Part shown: positions 13,594 to 48,417 of the stretch, piece by piece
Position numbering within the stretch: the stretch's first letter is position 1
Layout of the letters: every line of letters begins with the position of its first letter
Assembly: GCF_001514235.1 (NCBI RefSeq)
Contig: NZ_KQ948929.1
Coordinates: 361,566 to 425,565, forward strand
Source of the DNA: Streptomyces caeruleatus
Lineage (GTDB): Bacteria > Actinomycetota > Actinomycetes > Streptomycetales > Streptomycetaceae
Direction: 5' to 3'
Length of the DNA stretch: 64,000 nt
The notes under the pieces: model-generated
What the model saw: only the letters and a program-made list of their open reading frames with translations
Told to the model about the DNA's origin: nothing
The model's database searches: none
Made by a program: the position numbers and the translations under genes

Positions 13594-13612
13594 GCTTGCG
13601 GAGTTCCCAGGG

Positions 13613-16128: not shown

Positions 16129-16131
16129 CGC

Positions 16132-16617
16132 TCAGTCCCGCCCGAGTATCTCGGCGGCCGCCTCCACACCCTCGCGGGTGCCGATCACGATCAGGATGTC
16201 ACCGCCGGCCAGCCGGAAGTCCGGCGTCGGCGAGGGGATCGCCTGGGCCCGCCGGAGCACCGCGACGAGCGAGGCGCCGGTCTCGGTGCGCATCCGGGTG
16301 TCGCCCAGGACCCGTCCGTTCCAGTAGGAGGCCGCGGCCAGCTCTATGCGCTCCGCCACCAGTCCCAGGTCGGTCGTGGACAGCAGGTTCGGGCTGTGGT
16401 GGGAGGGGGTCAGCGCGTCGATCAGGGAGGCGGCCTCCGGCTCCGTGAGCCGCAGCGACTGGGCGCACGCGTCCGGGTCGTCGGGCCGGTACACGTTCAC
16501 CGTCCGGGTTCCGTCCCGGTGCGCGATCACCGACAGATGGCGGTGTTCCCGCGTGGTGAGGTCGTACTGGACACCGATACCCGGCAAGGGTGTGGCGCTC
16601 ATCCGCGGAGCAGGCAC
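16132..16617 (-). CDS. TrkA-C (RCK C-terminal) domain regulator of antiporter (KhtT-like), copy 1
   Basis: This 161-residue cytoplasmic protein has an N-terminal part beginning TPLPGIGVQYDL and a C-terminal TrkA-C fold with FRLAGGDILIVIGTREGVEAAAEIL. The GTG at 16615-16617 is chosen for the GGAGGGAGGGG just upstream, and because the paralogue at 19827 starts with GTG at exactly the same alignment position and gives an identical length. It lies 3 nt upstream of the antiporter and is probably translated with it. In the KhtT family the domain senses cytoplasmic conditions such as pH or nucleotides; the ligand here is unknown. Confidence 0.85.
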   Translation of the reverse strand: MPAPRMSATPLPGIGVQYDLTTREHRHLSVIAHRDGTRTVNVYRPDDPDACAQSLRLTEPEAASLIDALTPSHHSPNLLSTTDLGLVAERIELAAASYWNGRVLGDTRMRTETGASLVAVLRRAQAIPSPTPDFRLAGGDILIVIGTREGVEAAAEILGRD

Positions 16618-16883
16618 AACCCCTCCCTCCTTGTTCATCTCGTTGCGACGGTCGTGCGGTCGCACACGGCGGAACGGACCTGTCGGACCACCGCGGCGAA
16701 GGTCATCGTGCCAGGTGCGAACGGGCCCGGAACATGGGTGTCAGCACGGATGGACGGGCCGCGCCCCGAGCGGTCAGAGTGGTGCGGGGCAGTGGGCCCC
16801 GTCCCAGGTCGGGACCCGGTGCGGGCCGGTCGGCGACGGCAGGAGACAGTGGAGGTGAGGGTCACCGGGAAGGGAACGCGATC

Positions 16884-31153: not shown

Positions 31154-31451
31154 CCGGCGGAGCCCGCACCCCGGACTCTCCCACCCCGCATCCACGCCGT
31201 CCGGATTCGTCTCTTTGATCACCCGTTCCGTCGTTGAGGTGAAAAAGCAGGCGGAATGGGCGAGTTCACGGCCCCAGCCCTACCGTGATCATTGTGCCTT
31301 CCGAAGTGCGTGACCAGTCGCTGACCACCGGTTTCCCACTCCCGCCACGTTCCGCACCAGGGCTGACTTCCGCGATACCCGGCAGCGGTCACCGTTCGAT
31401 GTGACCACCTGTTCGCTCGCTCACGCAGGGTTACGGAATTGGGGTGTGGGG
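31154..31451. other. Intergenic region upstream of PKS2 operon
   Basis: This holds the putative promoter of the PKS2 operon. TCACCCGTT at 31219-31227 resembles the inverted-repeat arm before PKS1, and a GGTGAAAAAG segment follows at about 31238-31247. No gene or clear terminator is seen. Confidence 0.4.
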
Positions 31452-34400
31452 ATGGTGGGGGACTCGTCCGCCGCGGACGCGTTCGCGATCGTGGGACTGG
31501 GGTGCCGGCTGCCCGGCGGGATCGTGGATCTGGCCGGGTTGTGGGAGGCGCTGGAGGCCGGGCGCGATCTGGTCGGTGAGGTCCCTGCGGACCGGTTCGA
31601 GGCCGCGCGGTTCGTCGACACGGAGATGGCGAGGCCGGGGAAGTCGTACACCGCCCGAGGCGGGTTCCTGACGGACCTCGCGGAGTTCGACGCGGACTAC
31701 TTCGGGATCTCGCCGCGGGAGGCGGCGCAGATGGACCCGCAGCACCGGCTGCTGCTGGAGACCGCCGTCGAGGCGCTGGACGACGCGGGGATCGAACCCG
31801 CGACACTGGCGGGCTCCGACACCTGCGTGTTCATCGGCATCTCGGACTTCTCCTACGCCGGGCTCCAGATGTCCAAGCCCCGGCGGATGAACGCCTACTC
31901 CATGGCGGGCGGCGCCCATTCGATCGCCGCGAACCGGCTGTCGCACTTCTTCGACCTGCGCGGGCCGAGCATGGTGATCGACACCGCCTGCTCGTCGTCG
32001 CTGGTGGCCGTGGAACGCGCCTGCCGGGAACTGGCGTCGGGCGGCAGCCGGGTGGCGCTCGCGGGCGGGGTCAACGTGCTGCTCAACCCGAACGGCTTCG
32101 TCGGGTTCAGCCAGGCGTCGATGCTGTCGAAGCGGGGCCGCTGCGCGGCGTTCTCGGCGGACGCGGACGGGTTCGTCAGGGCCGAGGGCGCGGGTGTGGT
32201 CGTACTGAAGCCGCTGCCCGACGCCGTGGCCGACGGGGACCGGATCCAGGGTGTGATCGCCGCGTCCGGCAGCAACTGCGACGGGCGCACGGCCGGGCTG
32301 TCCCTGCCGAGCGCGCGGGCGCAGGAGGAACTGCTGCGGCGGGTGTACGAGCGGGCGGGGATCGCGCCCGACGAGGTGGTGTACGTGGAGGCGCACGGCA
32401 CCGGCACCCAGGCGGGCGATCCGGCCGAGTGCGCCGCGCTGGGCCGGGCGCTCGGCGTGGCGCGGACGGTGGGGCCGCTGCCGATCGGCTCGGTGAAGTC
32501 CAACGTGGGTCATCTGGAGCCGGCGTCGGGCATGGCGGGGCTGTTCAAGGCCCTCGCGGTGCTGCGGTACGGCACGATCCCCGCCTCCCTGCACCTGGAG
32601 CTGCTCAACCCCGGCATCGACTTCGCCGGGCTGGGGCTGGAGCCGGTCGAGCGGGCGCGTCCGCTTGCGGCCGCGGTGGGACGGCGGTTCGTGGGCGTCA
32701 ACTCCTTCGGGTTCGGCGGGGCCAACGCCCATGTCGTCGTCGGCCCGGCGCCTGCCTCCGGGCCCCGGGCCCGGGTCGAGGCGGCGGCCGAATTGCCGGT
32801 GATCGCCTCCGGTCGCACCCCGCGGGCGGCCGAGGAGGCGGCCCGGCGGCTGGCCGTCCGGCTGACGACCGCCACGTCCGAGGATCCGTCGGAGTTCTAC
32901 GACATCGCGGCCACCGCCGGCCTGCGCCGGGCCAGGCACCGTCACCGCAAGGTGGCGCTGGCCTCGACGGCACGCGAAGCCGCGCGGATCCTTTCCGGCG
33001 AACAGGTGACGGGCGAGGCCACGACAGGTGAGGCGGTCGAGCGCGGCCGGGTCGCGCTGGTCTTCGCGGGCAACGGCTCGCAGTGGGCCGGGATGGCCGC
33101 CGACCTGCTGGACGATCCGGTGTTCCGGGCCGAAGTGGACGCGGTCGACGCCGCGTGGGCGCCCCGGCTCGGCTGGTCGGTCGCCGCGGCGCTGCGACGG
33201 GCCGCGGACGAGTGGGGGCTGGAGGCCACCGAGGTGGCGCAGCCGCTGCTGTTCGCGGTGCAGGCCGGGATCACGGCGGTGCTGCGGGAGCGGGGCGTGC
33301 GGTGGGCGGTCGCGCTCGGGCACAGCGTCGGGGAGGTCGCGGCCGCGTACGCCGTCGGCGCGCTGACGCTTCAGGAGGCGGCCCGGGTGGTCGTGGAGCG
33401 CGGCCGGGCCCAGGCCGTGACGGCCGGTCAGGGCCGGATGGCCGCGGTCGGGATGTCGTCGGCCGAGGCGGAGAAGGTCCTGTCGGCGTACCCGCGCCTG
33501 GTCGTGGCCGCCGTGAACAGCGGCAGGGACGTGACGCTCGCCGGTCCGGTGGACCAACTCAAGGCGCTGGGCGACGAGTTGGCGGCCCGGGAGGTGTTCT
33601 TCCGGCTGATGGACCTCGACTACGCCTTCCACAGCCCGGTCATGGAACGGGTCCGGGCCCCACTGGCCGCCGGTCTCGACGGGTTGGAGCCGCGCGGCGA
33701 CACCGACGCCCTGATCTCCACGGTCACCGGTGGCCCGGTACCCGACTCCGGCCTGGACGGCGACTACTGGTGGCGCAACGTCCGCGAGCCGGTCCGGTTC
33801 GCCGCCGCCGTCCGGCACGCCCTGGACACGGGCGTCGACGTGCTGCTGGAGGTCGGCCCGCATCCCGTGCTGCGGACGTATCTGCGCCGGATCGCCACCG
33901 GACCCGACCGGATCGCCGTCCTCGCCACCCTGCGCCGCGACATGACGGGGCCGGTCGCGCTGCGCCGGTCAATCGAGGCCCTGATCGCCGCCGGGGCGGA
34001 GACGGACTGGACACGCTGGTTCCCCCGTCCCGCCCGGGTGGCGGAGCTCCCCGCGTACCCGTGGCAGCGGGAACGGCACTGGAGCGGCACCCCGCAGCAG
34101 TGGGTCATCAGCAGCGGGACGGGACGGCTGGACCACCCCCTGCTGGGCGAGCGGCTGCCGACGGCCGAGCCCGCCTGGGAGGGGCCCGTCGAACCGGCGC
34201 TGGTGCCCTGGCTGGTCGACCACAAGGTGGCCGGATCCGTGCTGTTCCCCGCGACCGGGTACGTCGAGATGGCCCTGGCCGCCGGGCGACGGGTGCTGGA
34301 CGGGCCGGTGGAGCTGACCTGGCTGGAGGTGAGCCGCCCGCTGGTGGTGCCGTGGAGCAGGGCCGGGGACGTCCGCATGCAGCTCGCGTTCTCGTCCGAC

Positions 34401-37400
34401 GACGGCAGGGTCTCCGTCACCAGCACCGAGGCCGTGGACGGCGCCGAAGCCGACGGCACCCAGCCCCGGCCGCACGCCCGGTGCCGGGTCCGTGAGCTGA
34501 TCGGCCGCGCGCCCGTGCGGGTCGACGCGGCCGGGGTGCGCGCCCGCTGCACGCGCCGGGTCGACATCGAGGCCCTGTACCGCGAACTGGCCGCGAGCGG
34601 CCTGGACTACGGTCCCGCGTTCCGGCAGCTCGTGCGGCTGCACCTCGGGAAGGCGGAGGTGCTGGCCGCCTACCGCCACACCACGGACACGTCCGGCACC
34701 GCCCCGTACGTGGCGCATCCGGCGCTGCTCGACGGTGCCCTCCAGGCGTGCGTGCCGCTCGCAGCCGCCCGCGCGGACGCCGGGGAGGCCTGGCTGCCGG
34801 CCTCGATCGGAGCCGTACGCGTGTGGCGGAGCCCGTCCCCGACCGGGCTGATCCATGTCCGTGACCGCACGCGCGGCGCCGTCGAACTCCGCTTCGACAT
34901 CTGCGTCACCGACCCGGACGGCAGCGTCACCGTCGAACTGGACGGGGTGCGGATGCGGCGCCTGCCCGGCCCTGCCGACCGGGCGCCGAAGCGGTACGAG
35001 ACCGTGTTGCGTGCCGCGCCGCGTCTCCGTCGGCCGGCCGCGCCCTCACCACTGCCCGGCAACCAGGACCTCGCCGACGCCGTCGCGGGCAGCGTCGACG
35101 CGGCGCGGGCCGACGCGCGTTCCGTACGGTCCGGCGACTTCCTGGTCCGGCTCAAGGAGGTCACCGCCCATGTGGCCGCGGCGGCCTTCGCGGACCTGCT
35201 GCCCGCAGGAGTGGCCGAGTTCACGCCCGCCGACCTGGTGCGAGAGGGCATGCTCCCCGGACACGACCGGTCGGCGCGGGCCCTGCTCCGGCTGATGACC
35301 CGGCACGGCCTGGCCGCCCTCGGCCAGGTTGGCAACTGGCGGTTGACCGGTACGGCCAGCCCGGCGCCCCTGCTGTGCCGGCTGCCGCTGGACTTCCCGG
35401 CCGCCAGTGCCGAAGTGCAGTTGGCGGTCCGCCAGTTGACGCATCTGCCGGACGTGCTGCGCGGCGCCCAGGACGCCCTGCATCTGCTCACCGACCAGGG
35501 CTCACGCGAGGCGCTGGAGCAGTTCTACGACCTCTCGCCGACCTGCCGGGGCCGTAACGGGATCCTCGCCGCGCTCATGGCGGAGGTCGTGCGGGCCTGG
35601 CCCGAGGACCGGCCGCTGCGGATCCTGGAGATCGGCGCGGGCACGGGCGGCACCACCGCCGCCCTGCTCCCGCTGCTGCCGCCGGAACGCGCCGTCTACC
35701 ACTTCACCGACGTCTCAGCGGGCTTCTTCGCCCGCGCCCGGCACCGCTTCGGCGACCACCCCTTCGTCGACTACCGCCCGCTCGACCTGAACACCGACCC
35801 CGGCGAGCAGGGCTTCCCCGACGGCGCCTACGACCTGGTCGTCGCGGCCAACTCGCTGCACACCGCGGCCGATCTGCGCGCGGCCCTGCGCCGGGTGCGA
35901 GGGCTGTTGGCGCCCGGCGGCCGGCTGTTCGCCTTCGAGACGCACGACACGGACTATCTGCTGCCGTTCTTCGGCCTGCTGGACAGCTTCTTCAGTCAGG
36001 ACGACGAGGAGCGGCCGGACTCACCCTTGCTGCTCCCGGAGCAGTGGTCCGAGGTGCTGAACGCGGGCGGCCTCACGGACGTCGTCTGCCTCGGTGCCGC
36101 CATCGAGTCGGCCGACGAGACCGCCTCGGTGCTGCTCGCCTCGGCACCCGTGTACCGGACCGCCCGGCCCGTGGTGGCCGGACCCGAGGACGGCACCCGG
36201 TGGATCGTGGCCACCGAGAGCGGACCGGAGACGGAGCCGGCCGAGCACCTCGCGGCACTGCTGACCGGCGGCGGAACGCGGTCCGTGCCGGTACTGCCCG
36301 CGCGGGTCGACGCGGCGGCCTGGACCTCGGTGCTCGCCGGGGACGGTGACCCGACGGTCGTGCTCATCCTCGGTGAGTCGCCCACCGACCCCGAGCCCGT
36401 GCTCGACCAGGCCGTGCGCCGTGCGGCCGTCCTGCGCTCGCTGGCCGCCGCCTGCCGGGACCTCCCCGAGGGCAGCCGACCCGCGCTGTGGCTGGTGACC
36501 CGGCCCAGCGGCGCGCTGCCCGCCCCCGAACGGGCCGCCCAACCGCAGGACGCCGCCGTCTGGGGCATGGCCCGCACCCTGGCCAACGAAAACCCGGGCC
36601 TGCGGGTGACCCGGCTGTCGCTGGAGCGCCTCGGCGACCCCGCGGCCGACGCGCACCGGCTGGCCCTCGAACTGCTGGAATCCGTCGCCCCGTCCGCCGA
36701 CGACACCGGCGCGGCGGGACGTGAGGACGAGATCGTGCTCACCTCGGGCGGCCGATTCGTCCCCCGGGAACGAGAACTCCCCTGCGGTGAGCACACCGTG
36801 CCGAGCGGGGACGAGCCCTTCGCCCTGGAGATCGGCGCTCCCGGGCTGTCGTACGAGCCGGTCTGGACGCGGACCGGGCCCCTCGCCCCCGGGGTGGGCG
36901 AAGTGGTGATCGCGGTGCGCGCCGCCGCCCTCAACTACCGGGACATCATGCAGGCGACCGGGCTGCTGCCGCCGGAGGCCACCGAAGCCGGGCCCAGCGA
37001 GAAGGGTCCCGGGTTCGAATGCGCCGGGGTCGTCACGGCCGTGGGGGAAGGCGTGCACGGTCTGGCCGTCGGCGACCGGGTGTGCGCGGTCGTGCCGGGC
37101 TGTCTGGCCTCGCACACGGTGGCGCCCGCGTCAGCCGTGGTGCGGGTGCCCGACGGTCTCGGTCTCGCGGCGGCCGCGACGCTGCCGGTGGCCTTCCTGA
37201 CGGTCCACTACGCGCTGCGCGACCTGGCCCGGCTGGCGGCCGGGGAGACGGTACTGGTGCACGGCGCCGCCGGCGGGGTCGGGCTGGCGGCGATCCAGTA
37301 CGCCCGCCTGGTGGGTGCCACGGTGATCGCCACCGCGGGCACCCCGGCCAAGCGCGACCTCCTGCGGGCCCTGGGCGTCGCGCACGTACTGGACTCCCGC

Positions 37401-38948
37401 ACCCTGGACTTCGCCGGTCAGGCGCTGCGGATCACCGGCGGGCGCGGGGTCGACGTGGTCGTCAACTCGCTGGCCGGGCAGGCCATCGACCGGGGCCTGG
37501 AGATCCTGCGGCCCGGCGGCCGGTTCGTGGAGCTCGGCAAGCGGGACATCTACGCCGACAAGCCGCTGCTCATGCGGCCGTTCAGCCGTAACATCGCGTT
37601 CTTCGGCGTCGACGTCACCGCTTTGCTGAACCACGAGGCCGGACTCGTGGCCGGACGGCGGCTGCTCGCCGAGATCGCCGTGCGGGTGGCGGACGGCCGC
37701 TACCGGCCGCTGCCGCACACGGTGTTCCCGGCGGCCCGGGTCAAGGAGGCGTTCGCGCTCCTTCAGCACTCGCGGCACGTCGGGAAGGTCGTCGTCAGCC
37801 TAGACCCGAAGGACGGCCCGGTTCCCGTCCGCACCCGGCCCGAGCCGCCCGCACTCGACCCCGACGGCAGCTACCTGGTCACGGGCGGGCTCAGCGGGTT
37901 CGGCGCCGCCACCGCCCGCCGGCTCGCCGAGCGCGGGGCCCGCCGTCTCGCCCTGGTCTCCCGGCGCGGTGCCGACGGTCCCGAAGCGGCCGCCGTGCTG
38001 GCCGACCTGGCCGAACAGGGTGTGACGGCCACGCCGTACGCCGCCGATGTCACCGACGCCGACGCGATGGCCGAGGTGATCGGCCGTGTCGACGCCACCG
38101 GGCATCCGCTCGCGGGAGTCGTCCACGCGGCGATGACTCTGGACGACGCGCCGCTCACCGAACTGACCGACGAACGGATCCGGGCGGTCCTGGCCCCCAA
38201 GGTGGCCGGCGCGGTGGTCCTCGACGCGCTGACCCGGGAGCGCGACCTGGGCCTGTTCTGGCTGTACTCCTCGTTCTCCGCGTCCGTCGGGAACATCAAG
38301 CAGTCCGCCTACGTGGGCGCAAACCTGTTCGCCGAAGCGCTGGCCCGACGACGGCACGGTGCCGGGCGGCCGACGCTCGCCGTCGCGTGGGGCGCCCTCG
38401 GGGACCACGGCCACATCGTCCGCGAGGGCCTGGCGCCGGCCATGGAGGCCCTCGGGACCGCGCCGGTCGGCTCCCGCGAGGCGCTGGACGCCCTGGAGAC
38501 GCTGGCGTCGTGCGATGCCCCCGTCGCCGGTGTCGGCCGCTACGACTGGTCCCGGCTGCGCACCCTGCTGCCCACCCTGGCGGCACCCCGCTTCGCGGCC
38601 CTGCTGCCCGCCGACGGTGAACTCGGCCGACACTCCCGGCAGGACCTCGTGGCCGCCCTGGCCGGACTCGCCGCGGACGAGGCGCTCCACGCCGTAAGCG
38701 CCACACTCGCCGAACTGCTGGCCCGGATCCTCCAGACCGACGTCACCCGCCTGGATCCACGACAGCCGCTGCAGGACCACGGCGTCGACTCCCTGATGGC
38801 CGCCGAACTGCTCACCAGGCTGCGGCAACGCCTCGACGTCGAGATCCCGCCCATGGAACTCCTCCAGGGCGGCATCACCCTCACCGACCTCGCCCGCCAT
38901 GTGCTGCTGCGCCTCGGCGTCCGCACCACCGACACCGCCAACGGCTGA
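31452..38948 (+). CDS. Type I PKS, KS-AT-DH-cMT-ER-KR-ACP (PKS2)
   Basis: This is a 2498-residue reducing PKS, paralogue of PKS1. KS: Cys180, His315, His354. AT: Ser625 in GHSVGE, YAFH 724-727 (malonyl-CoA favoured). DH: His924, Asp1094. C-methyltransferase (about 1320-1565): intact motif ILEIGAGTGGTT at 1391-1402, then HFTDVS. ER (about 1790-2120): HGAAGGVGLAA. KR: TGGLSGFG, LDD 2230-2232, Ser2273/2274, Tyr2287, Asn2291. ACP: Ser2447. No docking or thioesterase domain. The layout matches iterative highly reducing PKSs with alpha-C-methylation by SAM. The ATG at 31452 is chosen as closest to the KS; a GTG at 31446 is also possible. It heads a four-gene operon. Confidence 0.93.
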   Translation: MVGDSSAADAFAIVGLGCRLPGGIVDLAGLWEALEAGRDLVGEVPADRFEAARFVDTEMARPGKSYTARGGFLTDLAEFDADYFGISPREAAQMDPQHRLLLETAVEALDDAGIEPATLAGSDTCVFIGISDFSYAGLQMSKPRRMNAYSMAGGAHSIAANRLSHFFDLRGPSMVIDTACSSSLVAVERACRELASGGSRVALAGGVNVLLNPNGFVGFSQASMLSKRGRCAAFSADADGFVRAEGAGVVVLKPLPDAVADGDRIQGVIAASGSNCDGRTAGLSLPSARAQEELLRRVYERAGIAPDEVVYVEAHGTGTQAGDPAECAALGRALGVARTVGPLPIGSVKSNVGHLEPASGMAGLFKALAVLRYGTIPASLHLELLNPGIDFAGLGLEPVERARPLAAAVGRRFVGVNSFGFGGANAHVVVGPAPASGPRARVEAAAELPVIASGRTPRAAEEAARRLAVRLTTATSEDPSEFYDIAATAGLRRARHRHRKVALASTAREAARILSGEQVTGEATTGEAVERGRVALVFAGNGSQWAGMAADLLDDPVFRAEVDAVDAAWAPRLGWSVAAALRRAADEWGLEATEVAQPLLFAVQAGITAVLRERGVRWAVALGHSVGEVAAAYAVGALTLQEAARVVVERGRAQAVTAGQGRMAAVGMSSAEAEKVLSAYPRLVVAAVNSGRDVTLAGPVDQLKALGDELAAREVFFRLMDLDYAFHSPVMERVRAPLAAGLDGLEPRGDTDALISTVTGGPVPDSGLDGDYWWRNVREPVRFAAAVRHALDTGVDVLLEVGPHPVLRTYLRRIATGPDRIAVLATLRRDMTGPVALRRSIEALIAAGAETDWTRWFPRPARVAELPAYPWQRERHWSGTPQQWVISSGTGRLDHPLLGERLPTAEPAWEGPVEPALVPWLVDHKVAGSVLFPATGYVEMALAAGRRVLDGPVELTWLEVSRPLVVPWSRAGDVRMQLAFSSDDGRVSVTSTEAVDGAEADGTQPRPHARCRVRELIGRAPVRVDAAGVRARCTRRVDIEALYRELAASGLDYGPAFRQLVRLHLGKAEVLAAYRHTTDTSGTAPYVAHPALLDGALQACVPLAAARADAGEAWLPASIGAVRVWRSPSPTGLIHVRDRTRGAVELRFDICVTDPDGSVTVELDGVRMRRLPGPADRAPKRYETVLRAAPRLRRPAAPSPLPGNQDLADAVAGSVDAARADARSVRSGDFLVRLKEVTAHVAAAAFADLLPAGVAEFTPADLVREGMLPGHDRSARALLRLMTRHGLAALGQVGNWRLTGTASPAPLLCRLPLDFPAASAEVQLAVRQLTHLPDVLRGAQDALHLLTDQGSREALEQFYDLSPTCRGRNGILAALMAEVVRAWPEDRPLRILEIGAGTGGTTAALLPLLPPERAVYHFTDVSAGFFARARHRFGDHPFVDYRPLDLNTDPGEQGFPDGAYDLVVAANSLHTAADLRAALRRVRGLLAPGGRLFAFETHDTDYLLPFFGLLDSFFSQDDEERPDSPLLLPEQWSEVLNAGGLTDVVCLGAAIESADETASVLLASAPVYRTARPVVAGPEDGTRWIVATESGPETEPAEHLAALLTGGGTRSVPVLPARVDAAAWTSVLAGDGDPTVVLILGESPTDPEPVLDQAVRRAAVLRSLAAACRDLPEGSRPALWLVTRPSGALPAPERAAQPQDAAVWGMARTLANENPGLRVTRLSLERLGDPAADAHRLALELLESVAPSADDTGAAGREDEIVLTSGGRFVPRERELPCGEHTVPSGDEPFALEIGAPGLSYEPVWTRTGPLAPGVGEVVIAVRAAALNYRDIMQATGLLPPEATEAGPSEKGPGFECAGVVTAVGEGVHGLAVGDRVCAVVPGCLASHTVAPASAVVRVPDGLGLAAAATLPVAFLTVHYALRDLARLAAGETVLVHGAAGGVGLAAIQYARLVGATVIATAGTPAKRDLLRALGVAHVLDSRTLDFAGQALRITGGRGVDVVVNSLAGQAIDRGLEILRPGGRFVELGKRDIYADKPLLMRPFSRNIAFFGVDVTALLNHEAGLVAGRRLLAEIAVRVADGRYRPLPHTVFPAARVKEAFALLQHSRHVGKVVVSLDPKDGPVPVRTRPEPPALDPDGSYLVTGGLSGFGAATARRLAERGARRLALVSRRGADGPEAAAVLADLAEQGVTATPYAADVTDADAMAEVIGRVDATGHPLAGVVHAAMTLDDAPLTELTDERIRAVLAPKVAGAVVLDALTRERDLGLFWLYSSFSASVGNIKQSAYVGANLFAEALARRRHGAGRPTLAVAWGALGDHGHIVREGLAPAMEALGTAPVGSREALDALETLASCDAPVAGVGRYDWSRLRTLLPTLAAPRFAALLPADGELGRHSRQDLVAALAGLAADEALHAVSATLAELLARILQTDVTRLDPRQPLQDHGVDSLMAAELLTRLRQRLDVEIPPMELLQGGITLTDLARHVLLRLGVRTTDTANG

Positions 38949-38962
38949 AAGAGAGGCCTGCC

Positions 38963-41884
38963 ATGGTGACCTGTCAGAAGACCGACGGCCCGGCGACGGA
39001 CCGCGCCGACGGCATGCTCAGCTTCGGCCCGCTCGTCGGCGGCGCCACCGTCCCCGACCCCACCGACTGGGTCTACGCGATCCGCGCGAGCGCGCTCATC
39101 GACGATCCCGTCGGCGCCACCTGCTACCGCAACGCGCTCAACAGCGGGCGTATGACCCCTGACGCCCACCCCGAGACGATCCTGGGGCGCTGCGCCCTCG
39201 CCGGACCCGACCACCTCGACGCGGCGCTGCGCGCCGCACGGGACGCGGCCCGCGAGTGGGGCGGCAGCCCGCAGGACCGGCGCGCGACACTCGCCGAGGC
39301 GTTCCGCGCCAGGCTGCGGGAACACGCGGACACCCTGACGGGGCTGCTGGTGGACGAAGGGCATCCGGTGCGGCTGGCCCGCACGGAGGTCGCCGACCTC
39401 CTCACCTTCTTCGGCCCGGAGACCACCCAGTGGTGTCTGCGGCAGATGGAGAGCCGGCACACGGCCGAGGGCCGGTCGGTGGTGCTGCGCCGGGTGCCGG
39501 ACGGTGTGGTGTGCGTGCAGCCGCCGCAGAACACCCCGGCGCTGGGTGTCGGTGCGGCGTTCCAGTCGGTGCTGGCCGGCAACGCGCTGGTGGTGCGGCT
39601 GTCCCGGCACGCGCCGATCGCCGCCATGTACCTGCTGGAACGGATCGCCGTGCCCGCGCTCGCCGAGGTCGGCGCACCGCCGGGCGTGCTGTCGGCGCTG
39701 TGCACCGACCCCTCCCAGGCGTTGGACGCGTGGCTGGCCAGCCCCCTGGTGGACGACGTGCTGTACTTCGGCGACTCGATCCGCGGCGAGCAGTTGGAGC
39801 GGGCGTGTCTCGCCGCGGGCAAGAAGCCGGTCCTGGAACTCGGCGGCAACGACATGGTCGTGGTCTGGCGGGACGCGCCGCTCGACCGGGCCGTGGCGGC
39901 GCTGATGGAGTCGTACCACGGCAGCGGCCAGATCTGCTGCGCGCCCAACGTCGCGCTGGTCCACCCGGAGATCGCCGACGAGCTCACCGACCGGCTGACC
40001 GAGCGGGTCAGGGCACTGCGACCCGGCTTCCCGGACGACCCCGGGGTGGTGCTGGCCGCCACACCCAACACCGCGGGGTACGACGCCACCCTCGCCGACG
40101 CCCGGCGGGCGGGCGCCCGGGTGCTGGCCGGCGGACGCCATCTGGACGTCCACGGCCACGACAGCGACGTCGCCGTCTTCGCGGAGCCGGCGCTGGTCCG
40201 GGTCGACGGGCTCGGCCGGGCGCGGGAGTTGCGCTCGGTGCGGTACGAGACGTTCTTCCCGCTGCTGACGCTGGCCGTACCCCACCCCGTCGGCGACGAC
40301 GCCGAACTCCTCACCGAGATGGTGTCGTTCGTCGCCACCGGTACCTACGGACTGCGCAACTCCCTGTGGACGCGTTCCGAGGAGGTCATCGACCGGTTCG
40401 TCCGGGACGTCCGCTCCTGCGGGCAGCTGCGGGTGAACGACTCGCACCTCGCGGGCGTCCCGTTCCTGTCCAACCACGGCGGGCCGGGCCTGAGCGGCGA
40501 CCGGTTCGGCGAGCTCAACTACCCGATGCTGCGCACCAGCCGCCTCCAGGGTGTGTCCGTCGCCCGGTCCGCGCCGCCTGCCGAGGCGGCCGTCCCGTAC
40601 GTCCCGGCGCTGCCGCGGCCGAGGGTGGAGGCCGTCCGGGAGTACCCGCCGGGCTGGCCGCCCAAGGAGTTGCCCGGTGGGCTGCCGGCGCCGTTCACCG
40701 AGGCGTTCCACCACGACCCGTACCCGACGCTGCGCTGGCTGCGTGAGCACCGTCCGGTGAGCCGGGTGATCAGCCCGGACGGTCCGGGCTGGCTGCTGAC
40801 CCGCTACGACGACGTGCGCGCCGCGCACACCGATCCGCGGGTGACGTGTGACAGCAAGCGTGTCCCGGCCGGTCTGATGTGGCTGCGGCACTGGCCGTCC
40901 GAGCTGCGGGAGCGGCTGTTCGTGCATCTGCTGGAGAGCGACGACCCGCGCCACGGCGAACTGCGGGCGGTCATGCGGCCGTTCTTCACGCCCGCCCGGC
41001 AGGAACAGTGGCGCACCCGGGTGCAGCGCATCGTCGACGCCCGGATCGACCGGATCGCGGACCGGGGCCGCGGTGACCTCATGGCCGCGGTGGCCTATCC
41101 GCTGGGCGGCAACGTCCTGTTCTCCGTCCTCGGCGCCACACCGCCCCAGATGAACCATCTGCGGGCGATGATCTGGCGTACCGCCGAGTGGAACAACGAC
41201 GTCCCGTATGTCGCCGCGCTCGCCCACGAGGTCGACGGTTTCGTCCGGGCGGCCGTCGCCGAGAAGCGCCGCTCCCCCGGCGACGACCTGATCTCGCTGC
41301 TGGTCCGGGCCCGTGACCAGGACGGTCTGATCAGTGAGGACGAACTGCACGGCCAGGTCATGATGATGCTCGTGGCGGGCCAGGACCCCAGCATCAACAG
41401 CGTCGGCAACAGCCTGCACGCGCTGCTCGCCCACCCCGACCAGCTCGCCGCGCTCCGTGACGACCCCACCCTCATCGGGACGGGCATGAACGAACTGCTC
41501 CGCTACGAGAGCCCGTTGCCGTTCACGAGCTGGCGGGGCACGCTCGAACCCGTCGAGTTCGGCGAGGTGACCGTCCCCGCGGACGACTCCCTGTTCCTGT
41601 GCCTCGGCGCCGCCAACCGGGACCCCGCGCGCTTCCCCGACCCCGACCGCCTCGACCTGTACCGCACCGCGCCGGGCCACCTCGCGTTCGGCCACGGTGC
41701 CCACTACTGCCTGGGCGCCCATATCGGTCGTATGACGGCCGAGGCCGCCGTCACCACCGTGCTGCGCCGACTGCCCGGCCTGCGAGCGGACGGCACGCCG
41801 CGCTGGCGGCCCAGCATGTTCGAACGCGGGCTGAGCGTCCTGCCCGTCGCCTGGGACGTACCGCGCAAGGGAGCCGTCCGGTGA
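38963..41884 (+). CDS. Aldehyde dehydrogenase-cytochrome P450 fusion protein
   Basis: This 973-residue protein joins two enzymes. Residues about 60-530 are an ALDH-superfamily domain with ELGGN (Glu292) and nucleophile Cys325 in SGQICCAPN; the cofactor-site KPS is VRLS. Residues about 575-960 are a P450: ExxR at 844-847 (ELLRYESP), heme ligand Cys916 in FGHGAHYCLG. The I-helix reads AGQDPSIN at 805-812, so the usual threonine of AGxxTT is Pro809. The domains are joined by a proline-rich linker, with no stop or frameshift. It lies 14 bp after PKS2, has AGAGAGG upstream, and overlaps the ACP gene (GTGA). Roles could be release of the PKS chain as aldehyde, or oxidation of a terminal carbon to an acid. 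Confidence 0.9.
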   Translation: MVTCQKTDGPATDRADGMLSFGPLVGGATVPDPTDWVYAIRASALIDDPVGATCYRNALNSGRMTPDAHPETILGRCALAGPDHLDAALRAARDAAREWGGSPQDRRATLAEAFRARLREHADTLTGLLVDEGHPVRLARTEVADLLTFFGPETTQWCLRQMESRHTAEGRSVVLRRVPDGVVCVQPPQNTPALGVGAAFQSVLAGNALVVRLSRHAPIAAMYLLERIAVPALAEVGAPPGVLSALCTDPSQALDAWLASPLVDDVLYFGDSIRGEQLERACLAAGKKPVLELGGNDMVVVWRDAPLDRAVAALMESYHGSGQICCAPNVALVHPEIADELTDRLTERVRALRPGFPDDPGVVLAATPNTAGYDATLADARRAGARVLAGGRHLDVHGHDSDVAVFAEPALVRVDGLGRARELRSVRYETFFPLLTLAVPHPVGDDAELLTEMVSFVATGTYGLRNSLWTRSEEVIDRFVRDVRSCGQLRVNDSHLAGVPFLSNHGGPGLSGDRFGELNYPMLRTSRLQGVSVARSAPPAEAAVPYVPALPRPRVEAVREYPPGWPPKELPGGLPAPFTEAFHHDPYPTLRWLREHRPVSRVISPDGPGWLLTRYDDVRAAHTDPRVTCDSKRVPAGLMWLRHWPSELRERLFVHLLESDDPRHGELRAVMRPFFTPARQEQWRTRVQRIVDARIDRIADRGRGDLMAAVAYPLGGNVLFSVLGATPPQMNHLRAMIWRTAEWNNDVPYVAALAHEVDGFVRAAVAEKRRSPGDDLISLLVRARDQDGLISEDELHGQVMMMLVAGQDPSINSVGNSLHALLAHPDQLAALRDDPTLIGTGMNELLRYESPLPFTSWRGTLEPVEFGEVTVPADDSLFLCLGAANRDPARFPDPDRLDLYRTAPGHLAFGHGAHYCLGAHIGRMTAEAAVTTVLRRLPGLRADGTPRWRPSMFERGLSVLPVAWDVPRKGAVR

Positions 41885-42147
41885 AGCGCTCCGAGATCCT
41901 GGACGAACTGAAGGGGATGCTCGCCGAGTTCGGGGACGTCGACCCCGAACTGGTCGACGAGCAGACCGCGTTCGTCGCGGACCTGGGCCTCGACTCGCTC
42001 GTCCTGGTGCGGCTGACCGTCGTCGCCGAGGAGAGGTTCGGGGTGCGTGTCCCCGACGAGGTCGCCTGGGAGCTGCACACGGTCGGCTCGGTGGTCTCGT
42101 ACGTCGAGGAGGCCCTGTCCGGGCGGCTCGGGGCCGGCGGTGAGTGA
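41881..42147 (+). CDS. Discrete acyl carrier protein
   Basis: This is an 88-residue carrier protein of four-helix type. The phosphopantetheine site is Ser39 in DLGLDSLVLVRLT, with a typical acidic second helix (VVAEERFGVRVPDE). The GTG at 41881 overlaps the fusion gene stop by 4 nt, and its stop lies inside the ligase gene start (8-nt overlap). The tight coupling to a fatty acyl-AMP ligase indicates it receives the activated acyl group and hands it to the PKS. Confidence 0.92.
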   Translation: MKRSEILDELKGMLAEFGDVDPELVDEQTAFVADLGLDSLVLVRLTVVAEERFGVRVPDEVAWELHTVGSVVSYVEEALSGRLGAGGE

Positions 42148-43912
42148 ACTCGTCCGGTTCCTGCGCGAGAAGGCCTGGATCCTCGGCGACACCCGCTGGT
42201 ACGCGCGGGTGGACAGCGTGCGCGGCGAGCTCGTCGAGGTGGAACGCCTCGGCTACGCCCAGCTCGACGCCCGTGCCCGGGCGGTGGGAGCGTGGCTGGC
42301 CGACCGTACGCCGCCGGGAGCGCGCGTCATGCTGATGTACCCGGCGGGCCTGGAGTTCCTCGCGGTCTTCCTCGGCTGTCTGTATTCCGGGCGGGTGGCG
42401 GTCCCGGCTCCCCTCCCGGACACCGACCGTCGGGCCCTGGCGCGCGCCGCGGGCATCATCCGCGACGCGGAGGTCGGCCTGGTCCTGAGCGACGCCGCCC
42501 ACCAGCCCGCCCTCGCCGCCTGGCTCGCCGGTCTCGACCCGGCGCCGCCGGCCGGGTGCCTGGCCACGGACGGCGCCGGGCTGCCGGACCCGGGCACCTG
42601 GTCGCCGGCCGCGCTGGAGCTGTCGGCGACCGCCTACGTCCAGTACACCTCCGGGTCGACCAGTGAGCCGCGCGGTGTGGTCATCACCCACGGGAACCTG
42701 TTGCACAACCTGCTGTCGATCAGGGAGCTGCTCACCCCCGCACCCGTCCTGGACGAACTCCGCCTCGATCCGTCGCCGACCGGTGCCGGATGGCTGCCGC
42801 ACTACCACGACATGGGTCTGGTCGGCATGCTGCTCAGCCCGCTCGCGAGCTACGGCAATCTCGTGTTCTGCTCGCCGGTGTCCTTCGTCGCCCACCCGGA
42901 TCTGTGGCTGCGGATGATCAGCGGGTACCGGGCCTTCTACACGTTCGCCCCGAATTTCGGGTACGACTGGCTGCTGAGGAGCCTCAAGAACACCCGGCTC
43001 ACCGACCTCGACCCGGACCTGGACCTCGACTGCCTGCGGTTCGCGCTGAACGGCGCCGAGCCGGTCCGCGCGGAGGTCCTGAACGCGGTCGCACGCCGGC
43101 TCGCCCCGGTCGGCTTCGGCCCGGACATCTGGGCGCCCTGCTACGGCCTGGCCGAGGCGACGCTGATGGTGACCGGCACGCCGTGCGGCGCGGGGCCGAC
43201 CGTGGGCCGTTTCGACCGGGGCGCGCTGGAGGCCGGTCAGGCCGTGCCCGCACCGGACGGCGTGGACCTCGTCGGCTGCGGTCGGCCTGTCGGCGCCGAC
43301 GTCCGGATCGTCGACCCCGACACCGCGTATCCCCTCAAGGAGGGGCACATCGGTGAGATCTGGGTGTCCGGGGACAGCGTGGCCGACGGCTACCTCGGGG
43401 ATCCGCAGGCGACCACCGGGCAGTTCGCGGCGATGACGGCCGACGGCGAGGGTCCCTTTCTGCGCACCGGGGACCTCGGCTTCTTCCAGGACGGCGAACT
43501 CTTCGTCACCGGCCGCGCCAAGGACCTGATCATCGCCAACGGCCGCAACATCCACCCCCAGGACATCGAGCGCGTCGGCGAGTCGGCCGACCCCGCCACC
43601 GGCCCCTGCGCCGCCTTCACCCTCCCCGACGCGTCGGGGCACGAGCACATCGTCCTGGTCCAGGAAGTCCGCCCGCTCCACCTCGACGGCCGCACGCCCG
43701 CCGCCCTCGCCGACCTCATCAGGCGGCGTCTGGCCCAGGAACTGCGCCTTGCCGTCCAGGTCGTGGTCGTCGGTCCGATGAGCGTGCCCCGGACCACGAG
43801 CGGCAAGATCCAGCGCTCCCGGACCCGGGACGAGCTGCGCGCGAGCCGCCTCGGCGCCCTGCACTGCGATCTGCCGCCCGGCCTGGTCACAGGGTCGCGC
43901 GCAGGTGGCTGA
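42140..43912 (+). CDS. Fatty acyl-AMP ligase (FAAL)
   Basis: This 590-residue adenylating enzyme has features of FAALs rather than acyl-CoA ligases: P-loop YTSGSTSEPRGVVITH (169-184), HYHDMGLVG, the segment LDCLRFALNGAEPV, APCYGLAEATLMVTG and GRAKDLIIANGRNIHPQDIE. FAALs make acyl-adenylate and pass the acyl chain to an ACP or PKS. The GTG at 42140 (8-nt overlap with the ACP gene) is chosen because homology begins right after it. A catalytic lysine is present in TTSGKIQRS. Its 3' end overlaps the convergent deacetylase gene by 26 bp. Confidence 0.92.
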   Translation: MSELVRFLREKAWILGDTRWYARVDSVRGELVEVERLGYAQLDARARAVGAWLADRTPPGARVMLMYPAGLEFLAVFLGCLYSGRVAVPAPLPDTDRRALARAAGIIRDAEVGLVLSDAAHQPALAAWLAGLDPAPPAGCLATDGAGLPDPGTWSPAALELSATAYVQYTSGSTSEPRGVVITHGNLLHNLLSIRELLTPAPVLDELRLDPSPTGAGWLPHYHDMGLVGMLLSPLASYGNLVFCSPVSFVAHPDLWLRMISGYRAFYTFAPNFGYDWLLRSLKNTRLTDLDPDLDLDCLRFALNGAEPVRAEVLNAVARRLAPVGFGPDIWAPCYGLAEATLMVTGTPCGAGPTVGRFDRGALEAGQAVPAPDGVDLVGCGRPVGADVRIVDPDTAYPLKEGHIGEIWVSGDSVADGYLGDPQATTGQFAAMTADGEGPFLRTGDLGFFQDGELFVTGRAKDLIIANGRNIHPQDIERVGESADPATGPCAAFTLPDASGHEHIVLVQEVRPLHLDGRTPAALADLIRRRLAQELRLAVQVVVVGPMSVPRTTSGKIQRSRTRDELRASRLGALHCDLPPGLVTGSRAGG

Positions 43913-45338
43913 CGGTGACGAAGTGGTAGCCGCGGGCGGTCAGCGTGCGCAGGATCCGCGGGATCGCGGCGACCGAGGTGGGGTGGATGTCGTGCATCAG
44001 GACGACGTCGTTGCGCCGGGCCTTGTCGATGACGGTCCGGGCGACCTTGTCGGCGTCGCGGTACTTCCAGTCCTCGGTGTCCACGTCCCACAGCACCGGT
44101 GAGAGGCGGGTGGCGCCCCGGACGGTGGCGTTGATGGCGCCGTAGGGCGGGCGGAAGAGGGTCGGGGTCCGGCCGGTGGTGGCGGCCTCGATGGCGGCGC
44201 TGGTGCGGTTGAGCTGGGAGGCGACCTGCTCGGGGGTGAGCTTGGTGAGGTCGGGGTGGCTGTAGGAGTGGTTGCCTATCTCCATGCCCGCACGCGATGC
44301 GGCGCGGACCAGGTCGGGGTGGGCGGCGACGTTCTGGCCGACGGTGAAGAAGGTGGCGCGTGCCTTGTACCGCGCCAGGTAGGTCAGCAGGGTCGAGGTC
44401 TCCGGCATCGCCGGCCCGTCGTCGAAGGTGAGCGCGATGCACTTGGCCTTCTTGCAGTCGGTGTCGTCGTCGCCGGAGGCGGTGTGGGTGGGCACCGACG
44501 GTTCGGGGACGTGCGAGGCGCCCAGGTCCAGTGAGCTGTCGGGCCGTACGGTCTGCCGCTGGGCGCGTTGCCCGAAACCGGACAGCCAGGGGGTGACCGT
44601 GGCGCGGGGAAGGGTCACCACGTAGGCCCCGGCGGCCGGGGCACCCACCTCGCCGCGGTCGAAGGCCACGCGCAGTGCGCCTTCGGTGGTGAAGGACATG
44701 TCGTGCAGGGCCGCGGCGCGGGCGGCCGGATCGGAGAACAGGCCGTCGAGGGAGGCGGCGTCCACGCCCTCGCGTCCGTCGAGCCGGTCCTTCAGCGCGT
44801 CGACGAAGGCGTCCCGGGAGCCCTCGGCGACGAGGTCGAGGGGCGTGGCGTAGGCACCCGTCTTGCCGTCGTACCAGTACGTCCTGGTCGACAGCCCGGA
44901 CGCGGCGGCGCTGTGGTCCTGCGTGGTGAGCCGTACGCCGAGGACGTCGCCGGAGGCGACCAGGAACTGGTGGCTGATGTTGAGCTCACGGCTCTCCGCG
45001 CTGCCCGCGTCGCCCTCGCACGTCCCCGCGCGGAAGTCCGCCAGGCGCCGCTCCACCTCCTTCTTCATCACGGCGGTCATGGCCTCGGCACCCGGCACGC
45101 CCGGGTAGCTCGTCGCGAAGGGGCAGGAGCTCTGCTCGCTGCTGTCGTTGACGATCTCCAGGCCCTTGATCTTCGACGGGTCGACGCTGCCGCCGGGCGA
45201 GGGCGTGGCCGATCCGGGCCGCGCGTCACCGGACGCGGTGGCCGCGCCCGAGGGGCCGGACGCTCCCGGCGAGCAGGCCGCCGTGACGGAGAGGGCGGCG
45301 AGCAGGACGAGCGAGGGGAACAGGGGGTGAGTACGCAT
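43887..45338 (-). CDS. Polysaccharide deacetylase lipoprotein (NodB domain)
   Basis: This 483-residue protein has a signal peptide with lipobox LSVTAAC (Cys22), a long N-terminal region (about 55-280) of the DUF3298/PdaC-like kind, and a C-terminal NodB carbohydrate esterase-4 domain (about 295-480). Catalytic motifs: TFDDGPA, the HxxxH metal pair in GNHSYSHPDL, RPPYGA, DVDTEDW and MHDIH. It probably deacetylates peptidoglycan or another cell-wall sugar. It is convergent with the FAAL gene and not part of the PKS operon. Confidence 0.9.
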   Translation of the reverse strand: MRTHPLFPSLVLLAALSVTAACSPGASGPSGAATASGDARPGSATPSPGGSVDPSKIKGLEIVNDSSEQSSCPFATSYPGVPGAEAMTAVMKKEVERRLADFRAGTCEGDAGSAESRELNISHQFLVASGDVLGVRLTTQDHSAAASGLSTRTYWYDGKTGAYATPLDLVAEGSRDAFVDALKDRLDGREGVDAASLDGLFSDPAARAAALHDMSFTTEGALRVAFDRGEVGAPAAGAYVVTLPRATVTPWLSGFGQRAQRQTVRPDSSLDLGASHVPEPSVPTHTASGDDDTDCKKAKCIALTFDDGPAMPETSTLLTYLARYKARATFFTVGQNVAAHPDLVRAASRAGMEIGNHSYSHPDLTKLTPEQVASQLNRTSAAIEAATTGRTPTLFRPPYGAINATVRGATRLSPVLWDVDTEDWKYRDADKVARTVIDKARRNDVVLMHDIHPTSVAAIPRILRTLTARGYHFVTVSHLRATL

Positions 45339-45497
45339 GGGACCAGAACCTGACTGAAGGGATGTCCGGGCGCCGCCGACGGGGCTCCACGGTCGTTCTG
45401 GTCATGGATCGTGCAGGTCAGAGCCATTTTTCAGCGACCCGCCAGGCCACCCTGAACAATCCGGCCCATGCCCGATCCGCCCCTGTTCGCGGCGGTT

Positions 45498-48417
45498 TCA
45501 GTCGTTTTGGCCGCACAGGTTCTCGTGGGGCGCGTCAGGTACGTACGTCCGCCACTGCGCCTCGGTCAGTCCGCCACGGGTGCGGGCGCAGATCGTGCGC
45601 ACGGCCTGGTCCGGGTCGGGGGAAAGAGGCTGGAGCGGTACATGCGGGCCGGCGGCGTAGACCGTGCCGCCGGTTTGAGCGAAGGCGAGGGAGCGGATCG
45701 CGTCGCCGGACGTGGGCAGGTCCCCGCCGAGCAGCTGCTGCCCCGCGGTGTCCCACAGCCGCAGCGTTCCGTCGGCGCCGCCCACGGCCAGCGTGCCGCC
45801 GTCGGCGGAGAAGGCGAGCGCGCCCACCGCCTCGGGCGGCCCCTGGGAGACCGTGCCGGAGGTGCCGGTCAGCGCACCCGTGCGGTGCCGGAGGTCGCCG
45901 TCCCACAGGGTGACGTGGCCGGTGGCGTCGCCGACGGCGAGCCGGCTGCCGTCCCGGTTGAAGGCCAGCGCGGTGACCTCGCGGCCGTCGGCGAGCGCAC
46001 GCCCGGTGACCTTGCCCGACCTCGGATCGGCGTACTGGTCGTCGGAGGCCACGAGCAGGCCGCCGTCCGGCCGCACGGCCGCCGTCCCGCCGGAGAGGCC
46101 GCGCAAGGTGGCCGTCCGTCGGTGGGCGCGGGTGTCCCAGAGCTCCGTCGCGTAGCCGTCGGCGGTGGCGCGGACGGCGGCCAGGGTACGGCCGCCGGGC
46201 CCCAGCGCGAGGGCGCTGACCGGGCGGTCGGCCGCTCTGGAGATGTCGAGGACCCTACGCACCTTGTGCGTCCGTACGTCCCACACGGTGACGCGCAGCC
46301 GCCGCGAGCCGTGCGCGGACGTGGTGTCGGCGACGGCCAGCGCGCGGCCGTCCGGGCTGAAGGCCGCCAGCGGAGTGTCCGCGTCGGACATGCCCGGCAG
46401 CGGGCCGAGGGAGGCGCGGGCGAGTACCGGGCCCATGCCGGTATCGCTGCTGACGCCCGCCGTCACGCCCGTGCCCGTGCCCGTGCCCGTGCGCGTTCTC
46501 GTGGAGCGCAGCTCGAAGCGGTAGGCGCTGCCGGACCGGGTGATGGTGGCCAGGGCGGAGCCGTCGGGACCAAGGACGCTCGTGTCGGACTCGGTGGTCT
46601 GCCAGCGCGGGGTGAGGCGGTCGGTCAGGTCGAGGGTGTGGACCGTGGCGCCGTCGAGGTACCGCAGGAGGCGCCGGTCGCCTCGGTCCCAGGTGAGTCC
46701 GTCGGTGTCGGCCGCGGTCAGCTGCCGGTGGAAGACACGGGTGCCGCCGGTGGCCAGCCGCCACACGGCGAGTTCGTGGCCGTCCGCCGTGGCCAGGAAC
46801 TCCCCGTCCGGGGAGAGGGCGGCGTCGGTGAAGCCCGTGTCGGCGCCGCTGGTGAACTCGCCGAGGTCGCGTCCGTCCCGTACCTCCCAGACCTGGGCCG
46901 TCGTGTCGTGGACGGCGGCCAGCCGTGTGCCGTCCGCGCTGAACCTCAGCATGCGTGTGCCGCTGTCCGCGCCGGAGCCGGTGCCGCACACGGTCTTGTC
47001 CGCCTTGTCCCACTCCCCCGGCAGTCGCCTGCCGTCGACGGTGTCCCACAGTTGGGGCGGGCCGTCGGCGGGGCAGAGGGCGAGCAGGCGCCCTTCGGGG
47101 CCGACGGCCACGGTGGTGAGCGCGCGGTCGACGTGGGTGGTGAAGAGGACCTTGCCGTCGGCCGTCCGGTGCAGCCGGACCGCGCCGGGGCCGTTCACCG
47201 GGCCGGTGAGGTAGGCGCTCGCGTCGGGCGCGCTGCCCTGGAGCGACGCGTCGCCCAGCTCGGCGGCCGGTCGGCCGCGAGGTAGGTTCCAGAGTGTCTC
47301 GGCGCCGTCCGGTCCGATGACGTCGAGGAAACGGGAGCCGGGACCCGCGGAGATCGCCTCGGTGCCGCTCGGCAGGTGGTACGTGGCGGTGACCTTGTGG
47401 TCGGCGACGTTCCGGACGGTCACCTCGGTGCCGTCGACGCTGAGCAGGGTCCGGCCGCCGTCGGTGAGGAAGCGGCGGATGTCACGTCCGGCGTCGGGGT
47501 CGGTGAAGGCGTCGCGTTCCGGCTGGACCAGGGCGGCGAGCAGGGCCGAGCGGGACTCGGTGAGCGGGGCGGTGCGCCAGGCGGCCACGCCGAGCAGTGC
47601 GGCGGTGCGGGGGTCGGTGGAGCGCAGGCTGTCGGACACGGCTGCCAGCCGGCGGGCGGCGGCCTTGGCCGCCTCCTCCTGGCCGGCCCGGTCCCGCTGC
47701 CAGGCGACGAGGCCGGCGGTCAGGGCCAGGACGAGGAGCACGGTCAGGCCTACGGTCCGGGACCGCATCCGCCGTGCGGTGCGGGCCTCGGCCTCGCGCT
47801 CGGCGTCCCGGGCCGTCAGGGACGCGGTGAGGAAGGCCCGCTCCAGCCCGGTGAGATCGTCGTCCCGCTGCCGGGCGAGCAGTTCCTCGGCCCGGGCCAG
47901 GGACGTGCCCCGGTACAGCGCGCCGGGGTCGCGCTCCAGTTCCTCCCAGACGAGTGCCGCCTCGCCGAGCCGGCGCTGTGCGCGCAGCCGGTCCCGGCCC
48001 TCCTCGCCCGAACACCGCCGCGAACCGGTGCTCGCGCACCAGCTCCAGCAGTTCGCCGACCAGTGCCTCCCGGCCGAAGAACAGATGGCTGTCGTCCGGT
48101 TCGAAACGGGCCAGGCCCCGGTACGGCGGCGTCTCGTCCGGTGCGGGCGCCCGGACCTCGGCATCGGCCTCCCGCCAGCGCCGCTCCCATGCGTCGGGGT
48201 CGGCGTCCAGTGCCTCGGCGTACGCCCGCACCACTGCCCGGGTCGGCAGCTGTTCCCCGGCTGCCGCCTGGGACAGCGCGGTCGTCGAGTAGCCCGCTCG
48301 CTCGGCCATCTCCCGGTACGGGGGCGTCCCCGCCTTCTGCCGCAGGACCCGAAGATCGTGCGCGAGCCGCTGCACGGGACCGGCGTCCGGGTCCACCGGC
48401 TTCTCACGTCGTCCCAC
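45498..48417 (-). pseudogene. HTH-NTPase-WD40 protein with NTPase core deleted
   Basis: The first about 140 codons (from GTG 48417) encode an XRE-type helix-turn-helix (EMAERAGYSTTALSQAAAGEQLP) and the start of an nSTAND-like NTPase, YRGLARFEPDDSHLFFGRE...FAAVFG. At about 48000, where the Walker A loop should follow, the sequence jumps to the distal end of the NTPase (RDRLRAQRRLGEAALVWEEL) in another frame. From there an open frame continues with a membrane helix and a long WD40 beta-propeller region to the stop at 45498. Several hundred codons are missing and the frames do not match, so the gene is broken. A short GTGCCC repeat run lies near 46465-46490. Confidence 0.7.

Follow-up and report, generated by a model that had tools for sequence, protein, structure and literature searches.

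In a stretch of 64,000 nucleotides from Streptomyces caeruleatus (contig NZ_KQ948929.1, positions 361,566 to 425,565; hereafter the window), one gene encodes an aldehyde dehydrogenase (ALDH) and a cytochrome P450 in a single polypeptide. This ALDH–P450 fusion is real and not a sequencing artefact. It is the second of four nearly touching or overlapping genes, which encode a polyketide synthase (PKS), the fusion, an acyl carrier protein (ACP) and a fatty acyl-AMP ligase (FAAL). For its function we consider a two-step reaction, with the chances for and against it about balanced: a carrier-bound chain would be reduced to an aldehyde by the ALDH half and then oxidised or deformylated by the P450 half.

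The fusion gene and its conservation

The frame starts with ATG at 38963 on the forward strand, ends with its stop at 41884 and has zero internal stops over 973 residues. A ribosome-binding-like GAGAGG is located directly 5' of the start, and 14 bases separate the end of the PKS gene from the ATG. The window DNA is ~73% GC and its opposite strand also has a 1774-residue open frame, so frame length alone is no proof; codon-position GC, profiles and conservation were used for this reason. The codon-position GC of the fusion frame is 0.75/0.51/0.93, as expected for a real gene in GC-rich DNA. Pfam identifies Aldedh (PF00171) at residues 70–512 with 193 bits (cut-off 23) and p450 (PF00067) at residues 771–936 with 74.5 bits, while NCBIfam P450 models span residues 588–963. 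The fusion matches 49 NCBIfam families, and all 25 among the matches listed score below their cut-offs. A chance frame in GC-rich DNA is ruled out by the profiles, the codon-position GC and the ratio of nonsynonymous to synonymous substitution rates (dN/dS). The earlier note on this DNA had described an uninterrupted frame with both domains and had placed Glu292, Cys325, the ExxR motif (844–847) and Cys916; the Pfam matches and the zero stops bear out the frame, and all these positions are correct.

Orthologous fusions with 83–94% identity are carried by ten further Streptomyces genomes. They exclude a stop codon overlooked between the domains, which the earlier note had named as the observation that could overturn its claim. 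The same holds for an assembly error, given eleven distinct intact copies: the window, L009–L016, L121 (in genome G104) and L188 (in G363), where G097 is counted together with the S. regalis locus L013. Across 84,980 species' genomes, a scan found 8 full-length copies with 83–94% identity, all in Streptomyces; they come from the best 80 of the 282 loci that were confirmed, and since the patterns were derived from the query, the scan could overlook more distant fusions. In two sets of 199 and 293 genomes, the fusion was intact in the own genome (G000), G097, G104 and G363 and decayed in G067. A phylum-wide sample of 296 genomes (E 1e-70) yielded no fusion other than those of G000 and G067, and none outside the genus. 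The best 4, 2 and 2 candidates per genome were scored in the 199-, 293- and 296-genome samples, and the best 6 in the FAAL search.

The order PKS, fusion, ACP, FAAL is observed in all 11 copies (the L016 locus includes just the second half of its PKS), which agrees with the PKS operon claimed before. The PKS preceding the fusion in the other loci is 74–90% identical to that of the window. When eleven flanking genes were used as queries, matches were obtained only in L009 and L010; the four genes are thus a conserved unit. The FAAL query (E 1e-130) hit 4 of the 198 genomes of a genus sample, and all four have the fusion (three intact, one decayed). At that threshold, no cluster in these 198 genomes had this FAAL and lacked the fusion. 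Among plasmid records, none covered 80% of positions 37000–44000.

Between the window and eight orthologues, dN/dS is 0.15–0.29 for the ALDH half, 0.10–0.22 for the P450 half and 0.15–0.35 for the linker, and the P450 half is below the ALDH half in 8/8 comparisons. These values indicate that the fusion is under purifying selection. The length of the linker differs by one residue among ten aligned fusions. The decayed unit of G067 (locus L122, 7857–11410) shows no PKS match within 7.8 kb upstream, its ALDH half is mostly absent, and both its P450 half and its FAAL appear to have a disrupted reading frame.

In the AlphaFold model of the fusion (mean predicted local distance difference test score, pLDDT, 76.8; predicted TM-score, pTM, 0.52), two folded domains are predicted, and the pLDDT falls below 50 at residues 536–577. 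Foldseek matches the P450 half to PikC (TM 0.89 by target length, 39% identity); for the ALDH half it gives solved ALDHs, with a TM of about 0.75 by target length.

Table 1. Features of the four-gene unit in the window
Feature	Positions	Strand	Remarks
Single-module reducing PKS, KS-AT-DH-MT-ER-KR-ACP	31401..38948	+	Pfam domains; without thioesterase
ALDH–P450 fusion gene	38963..41884	+	973 residues; Pfam, alignment, 11 distinct intact copies including the window
ALDH half, about residues 66–533	39158..40561	+	Asn190 (oxyanion), Glu292, Cys325 (first Cys of GQICC); Arg212/Arg215
Linker, about residues 534–577	40562..40693	+	Near-constant length, predicted disordered; alignment of 10 fusions, pLDDT
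P450 half, about residues 578–965	40694..41857	+	Asp808-Pro809 (I helix), ExxR 844–847, heme Cys916
Stand-alone ACP, 88 residues, DSL serine motif	41881..42147	+	PP-binding match; NCBIfam ACP models match below cut-off
FAAL, 590 residues	42140..43912	+	AMP-binding; start overlaps ACP

The GTG start of the ACP gene overlaps the stop of the fusion gene. The NCBIfam matches of the FAAL include several fatty-acid-AMP ligases, all below their cut-offs. The ACP and FAAL genes, together with the Pro809 substitution in the P450 half, are additions to the earlier note.

At 2897–10387, the window has another single-module PKS, which shares the domain order KS-AT-DH-MT-ER-KR-ACP and is 51% identical to the first. 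It adjoins a ketosynthase III (1713–2843, reverse strand) and a major facilitator superfamily transporter, and no ALDH, P450 or FAAL was found adjacent to it. Pfam finds no thioesterase domain in either PKS of the window, as stated before. At 43887–48407, a polysaccharide deacetylase and a WD40-repeat protein separate the unit from an operon of LysR, FAD oxidase, HglS and piperideine-6-carboxylate dehydrogenase; in S. muensis (L009) this operon lies directly 3' of the four-gene unit. In S. longispororuber (L016), a second PKS on the opposite strand (10597–17118) is close behind the unit, matched in two pieces with 48% and 43% identity.

The ALDH half and its relatives

The ALDH half is a member of the ALDH superfamily by its Pfam match and by its conserved catalytic Cys and Glu and oxyanion Asn. 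Among the 38 PF00171 matches of the own genome (fragments included), it ranks 31st, with 195.8 bits vs up to 584. In a tree of 59 rows, the ten fusion ALDHs form one clade, which is joined to 17 unfused ALDHs from azoxy-type loci (SH-aLRT 98). With six other unfused relatives they make up a family of 33, which stands apart from 26 own-genome ALDHs with a support of 100. A slower tree gives the join between fusion and azoxy-type ALDHs only 82/67; ten own-genome rows in it were apparently read on the wrong strand. From these trees we regard the membership of the fusion ALDHs in the 33-row family as firm and their sister placement with the azoxy-type ALDHs as moderately supported. Judged by sequence, the ALDH half differs from ordinary catabolic ALDHs, and among the matches listed its branch matches no named NCBIfam model above cut-off. 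The unfused relatives listed are 40–48% identical to the fusion ALDH and have the same signature motifs.

The Glu (E[L/M][A/G/S]GND), the Cys (GSGQ[I/L]C) and the Asn are conserved throughout the 33 members. Arg212 and Arg215 of the window correspond to Arg/Arg in all ten aligned fusions and all 17 azoxy-type relatives, with other letters in the remaining six. We take these positions to be those of Lys192 and Glu195 of ALDH2, which bind the adenosine ribose, and the Arg pair may therefore indicate use of NADP(H).

The genomic context was inspected for 23 unfused relatives, 17 in azoxy-type loci and six outside, covering 18 of the 32 genomes in which the 199-genome search had found an unfused relative, mainly the best-scoring ones. 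The azoxy-type label was assigned from tblastn marker matches with the proteins of a linear plasmid cluster, whose annotation includes a VlmB-like protein, DUF2156, a ketosynthase III, an ACP and an aminotransferase. An aminotransferase is found in 17/17 azoxy-type loci (at the edge of the stretch in L116, annotated as class III-fold in L090). All 17 also have an acyl-CoA dehydrogenase-like gene and at least one VlmA-, VlmB- or VlmO-like match. A PKS match over several domains is present in six of them (L090, where it is ~11 kb away, L107, L109, L113, L115 and L116); the PKS-type match of a seventh, L105, is a ketosynthase only. Nine have an ACP match. The PKS of L107, the one PKS scanned among the azoxy-type loci, is a single module without thioesterase. 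L089 and L090 are azoxy-type clusters on linear Streptomyces plasmids of ~150 kb, and three more NBC strains among the ten matches listed have a family ALDH on plasmids of similar size.

For azodyrecin, Ady2 ('a putative dehydrogenase') is the proposed origin of a fatty aldehyde that the transaminase Ady4 aminates (PMC9379638). From the gene context rather than the sequence of Ady2, we infer that the ALDHs examined here correspond to Ady2. A reductive role of the ALDH half is favoured because its closest relatives are found alongside aminotransferases, enzymes that act on an aldehyde and not on an acid. The azoxy-type loci and the Ady2 proposal together thus favour reductive release, the role that the earlier note had found attractive; the conserved Glu292 leaves the acid direction possible. 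Its remark that an ALDH is unusual in a PKS role needs a qualifier, since unfused ALDHs of the same family are found in azoxy-type clusters, six of the 17 with a PKS.

The opposite direction, the second possibility raised in the earlier note, deserves consideration and is, in our view, somewhat unlikely. Here the P450 would hydroxylate the terminal carbon to the alcohol and the aldehyde, the ALDH half would convert the latter to the carboxylic acid, and hydrolytic release would take place elsewhere, as with catabolic P450/ALDH pairs. All 33 members have Glu292, which acts as the general base in hydrolytic ALDHs. Where the ALDH half matches named solved structures or NCBIfam models, oxidising ALDHs are in the majority; the structures matched also include CoA-acylating methylmalonate-semialdehyde dehydrogenases. 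On a Rhodococcus ruber plasmid (with a ferredoxin and an FAD-dependent oxidoreductase) and on a Rhizobium plasmid, an ALDH gene and a separate P450 gene do lie side by side, but these pairs are only 25–26% identical to the fusion, and the four-gene unit has no ferredoxin or reductase gene. The separation of the ALDH half from the 26 own-genome ALDHs and the aldehyde requirement of the neighbouring aminotransferases also argue against an oxidative direction.

The P450 half

The P450 half has the PF00067 match, the heme Cys loop, the ExxR motif and the fold of a P450. Its best solved relative is PikC (CYP107L1; 271 bits, about 39–40% identity), and this similarity, not a formal CYP assignment, suggests a CYP107 label. 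The heme Cys and the Glu and Arg of ExxR are present in all ten aligned fusions. The I helix reads AGQDPS in 11/11 fusions, with Pro809 in place of the usual Thr, while that of PikC reads AGHETT. At the Pro809 column, 126 relatives with less than 75% identity, collected by similarity to the query and not as a random sample, have Thr in 95, Ala in 11, Asn in 9 and Pro in 3. In the own genome, where the comparison drew on 30 of the 45 PF00067 matches, Thr is found in 21 of 26 other alignable P450 stretches and Pro in one (AGHEPT, L215).

The source of the P450 half was also considered. There is no sign of recruitment from the P450 gene of an azoxy-type cluster, the half being 38% identical to that of L089 vs 40–44% to the best-scoring other P450s. 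The locus of one AGYENT-type relative (L128) has DUF899, amidohydrolase, ABC and FUSC neighbours and is uninformative on function.

Two readings bear on this half in particular. The ALDH half might release the chain reductively while the P450 acts independently at another position, on the carrier-bound or the released chain, so that the fusion merely co-locates two enzymes. The long linker predicted to be disordered, the unsure domain placement and the similarity to CYP107 macrolide hydroxylases such as PikC would fit, but the fusion and its near-constant linker are kept in ten aligned copies, which suggests a gain from proximity of whichever kind, and we find this independence unlikely. A catalytically inactive or redox-dead P450 half is highly improbable: the I-helix Thr is lost and a P450-derived glycosyltransferase-activator model is matched below threshold (126 bits vs a cut-off of 343), but the heme and ExxR residues are invariant in the ten aligned fusions and the dN/dS of this half is the lower of the two in all eight comparisons.

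A possible pathway

Reduction followed by P450 chemistry would place the fusion in a four-gene pathway that builds a methyl-branched, reduced chain and releases it from its carrier without a thioesterase. The FAAL would activate a carboxylic acid and load it on the stand-alone ACP, and the iterative PKS would elongate, C-methylate and reduce the chain. The ALDH half would then take the acyl group from the carrier protein onto Cys325 and reduce it with NAD(P)H to the aldehyde, and the tethered P450 half would oxidise this product. The observed basis is the gene order, the domain content, the catalytic residues, the conservation of the unit and the ALDH family; from these we infer the substrate, the direction of the ALDH, the order of the steps and the product. 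The PKS without thioesterase, the co-occurrence of FAAL and fusion, the conserved Asn190, Glu292 and Cys325, and AGQDPS in 11/11 fusions are consistent with such a pathway.

For the last step, the I-helix alcohol is replaced by proline and the P450 is fused to a likely aldehyde maker, so a peroxo-type attack on the aldehyde, giving a one-carbon-shorter chain and formate, is one specific option, with ordinary hydroxylation just as open. In its full form, reduction would be followed immediately by deformylation through a ferric-peroxo P450 without the proton-delivering Thr, and the product would be a methyl-branched terminal alkene or another hydrocarbon, plus formate. The fusion would then be a bacterial counterpart of the pair of acyl-ACP reductase and aldehyde-deformylating oxygenase. 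We put this forward very tentatively and think it quite unlikely. P450 2B4 deformylates aldehydes via ferric peroxide to olefins and formate, and the same source calls the roles of individual residues a matter of speculation and cites a Thr302-to-Ala switching study of 1996 (PMC10877606).

Several observations weigh against reductive release followed by P450 action. The Glu292 required for hydrolytic acid formation is kept in 33/33 family members and permits the oxidative direction. The reductive role of Ady2 is a proposal and not an assay (PMC9379638). No aminotransferase match was obtained in the fusion loci by tblastn. Six of the 23 unfused relatives lie outside azoxy-type loci, and only one of these, L112, showed a carrier-protein domain nearby; the other five (L118, L119, L120, L123 and L124) have no tblastn match to other reference proteins. 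The four-gene unit has no ferredoxin gene. Loss of the Thr is not peculiar to the fusion, since 8 of the 9 best-scoring P450 relatives read AGYENT with an Asn, and it may precede the fusion event; moreover, Ser810, next after Pro809, could substitute for the missing alcohol. The channelled chemistry suggested by the earlier note finds no support in the predicted structure: the model offers no evidence of an interdomain channel, the linker is predicted disordered and the relative placement of the domains is unsure (pTM 0.52).

Regarding the relatives outside azoxy-type loci, the family ALDH of L112 (1319–12545) adjoins a formyltransferase-adenylation-carrier protein, a short-chain dehydrogenase and a pyridoxal phosphate enzyme. 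By Pfam, no carrier protein was found in the scanned part of the neighbours of L118, L119 and L123.

Comparison with known systems

The azoxy-cluster ALDHs, with Ady2 as the published example, are the nearest known kind. They belong to the same ALDH family by the tree and share its motifs, and their loci have a PKS or an ACP match in part. Those ALDHs are unfused and the next enzyme is an aminotransferase, whereas the fusion has a P450 instead. By the same queries, azoxy genes (VlmA-, VlmB- or VlmO-like, aminotransferase) are found neither in L009–L016 and L121 nor in the window, which sets the fusion loci apart from azoxy clusters.

In tambjamine biosynthesis (TamA/TamH), an acid is activated onto an ACP and the thioester is reduced to an aldehyde that is passed to a fused second domain, as shown with purified proteins (PMC9594044); this is a tested precedent for the release proposed here. 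A similar hand-over of an aldehyde by PigE in prodigiosin biosynthesis is reported from cell lysate and not with purified protein (PMC8341465). The reductase of TamH and PigE is of the cyanobacterial acyl-ACP reductase type and is joined to a transaminase, whereas the fusion joins an ALDH superfamily member to a P450; no transaminase domain was found in the fusion protein by Pfam. By analogy, the likeness is one in manner of working and not in membership.

CYP152 peroxygenases such as OleT have Arg-Pro instead of the acid-alcohol pair, with Pro at the Thr252 position (PMC5377825). The fusion shares the Pro but keeps Asp808 where CYP152 has Arg, and it is not a CYP152 member.

The nearest solved relative of the unit's PKS is the mycobacterial mycocerosic acid synthase. 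This enzyme is a single iterative module without thioesterase that works with a FAAL partner. Unlike it, the PKS of the unit has a C-methyltransferase domain and is followed by a dedicated ALDH–P450.

Among open-licence texts, judged by title and the start of the abstract, we found neither a described ALDH–P450 fusion nor a description of this kind of Streptomyces PKS/FAAL unit, which does not prove that none exists. The ALDH–P450 architecture thus looks undescribed, within a known kind in which a release reductase is fused to the next enzyme.

The question of function is sharpened by the conservation and the context, and the four-gene unit is small enough for whole transfer to a laboratory host. 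The natural Thr-to-Pro change makes the idea of peroxo-deformylation testable in an enzyme whose partner would supply the aldehyde. Should the ALDH half prove to be a thioester reductase, chain release in Streptomyces fatty and polyketide pathways, azoxy compounds included, would be a task of one branch of the large ALDH superfamily, and with a tethered P450 that attacks the newly formed aldehyde, polyketides would be ended in a novel manner.

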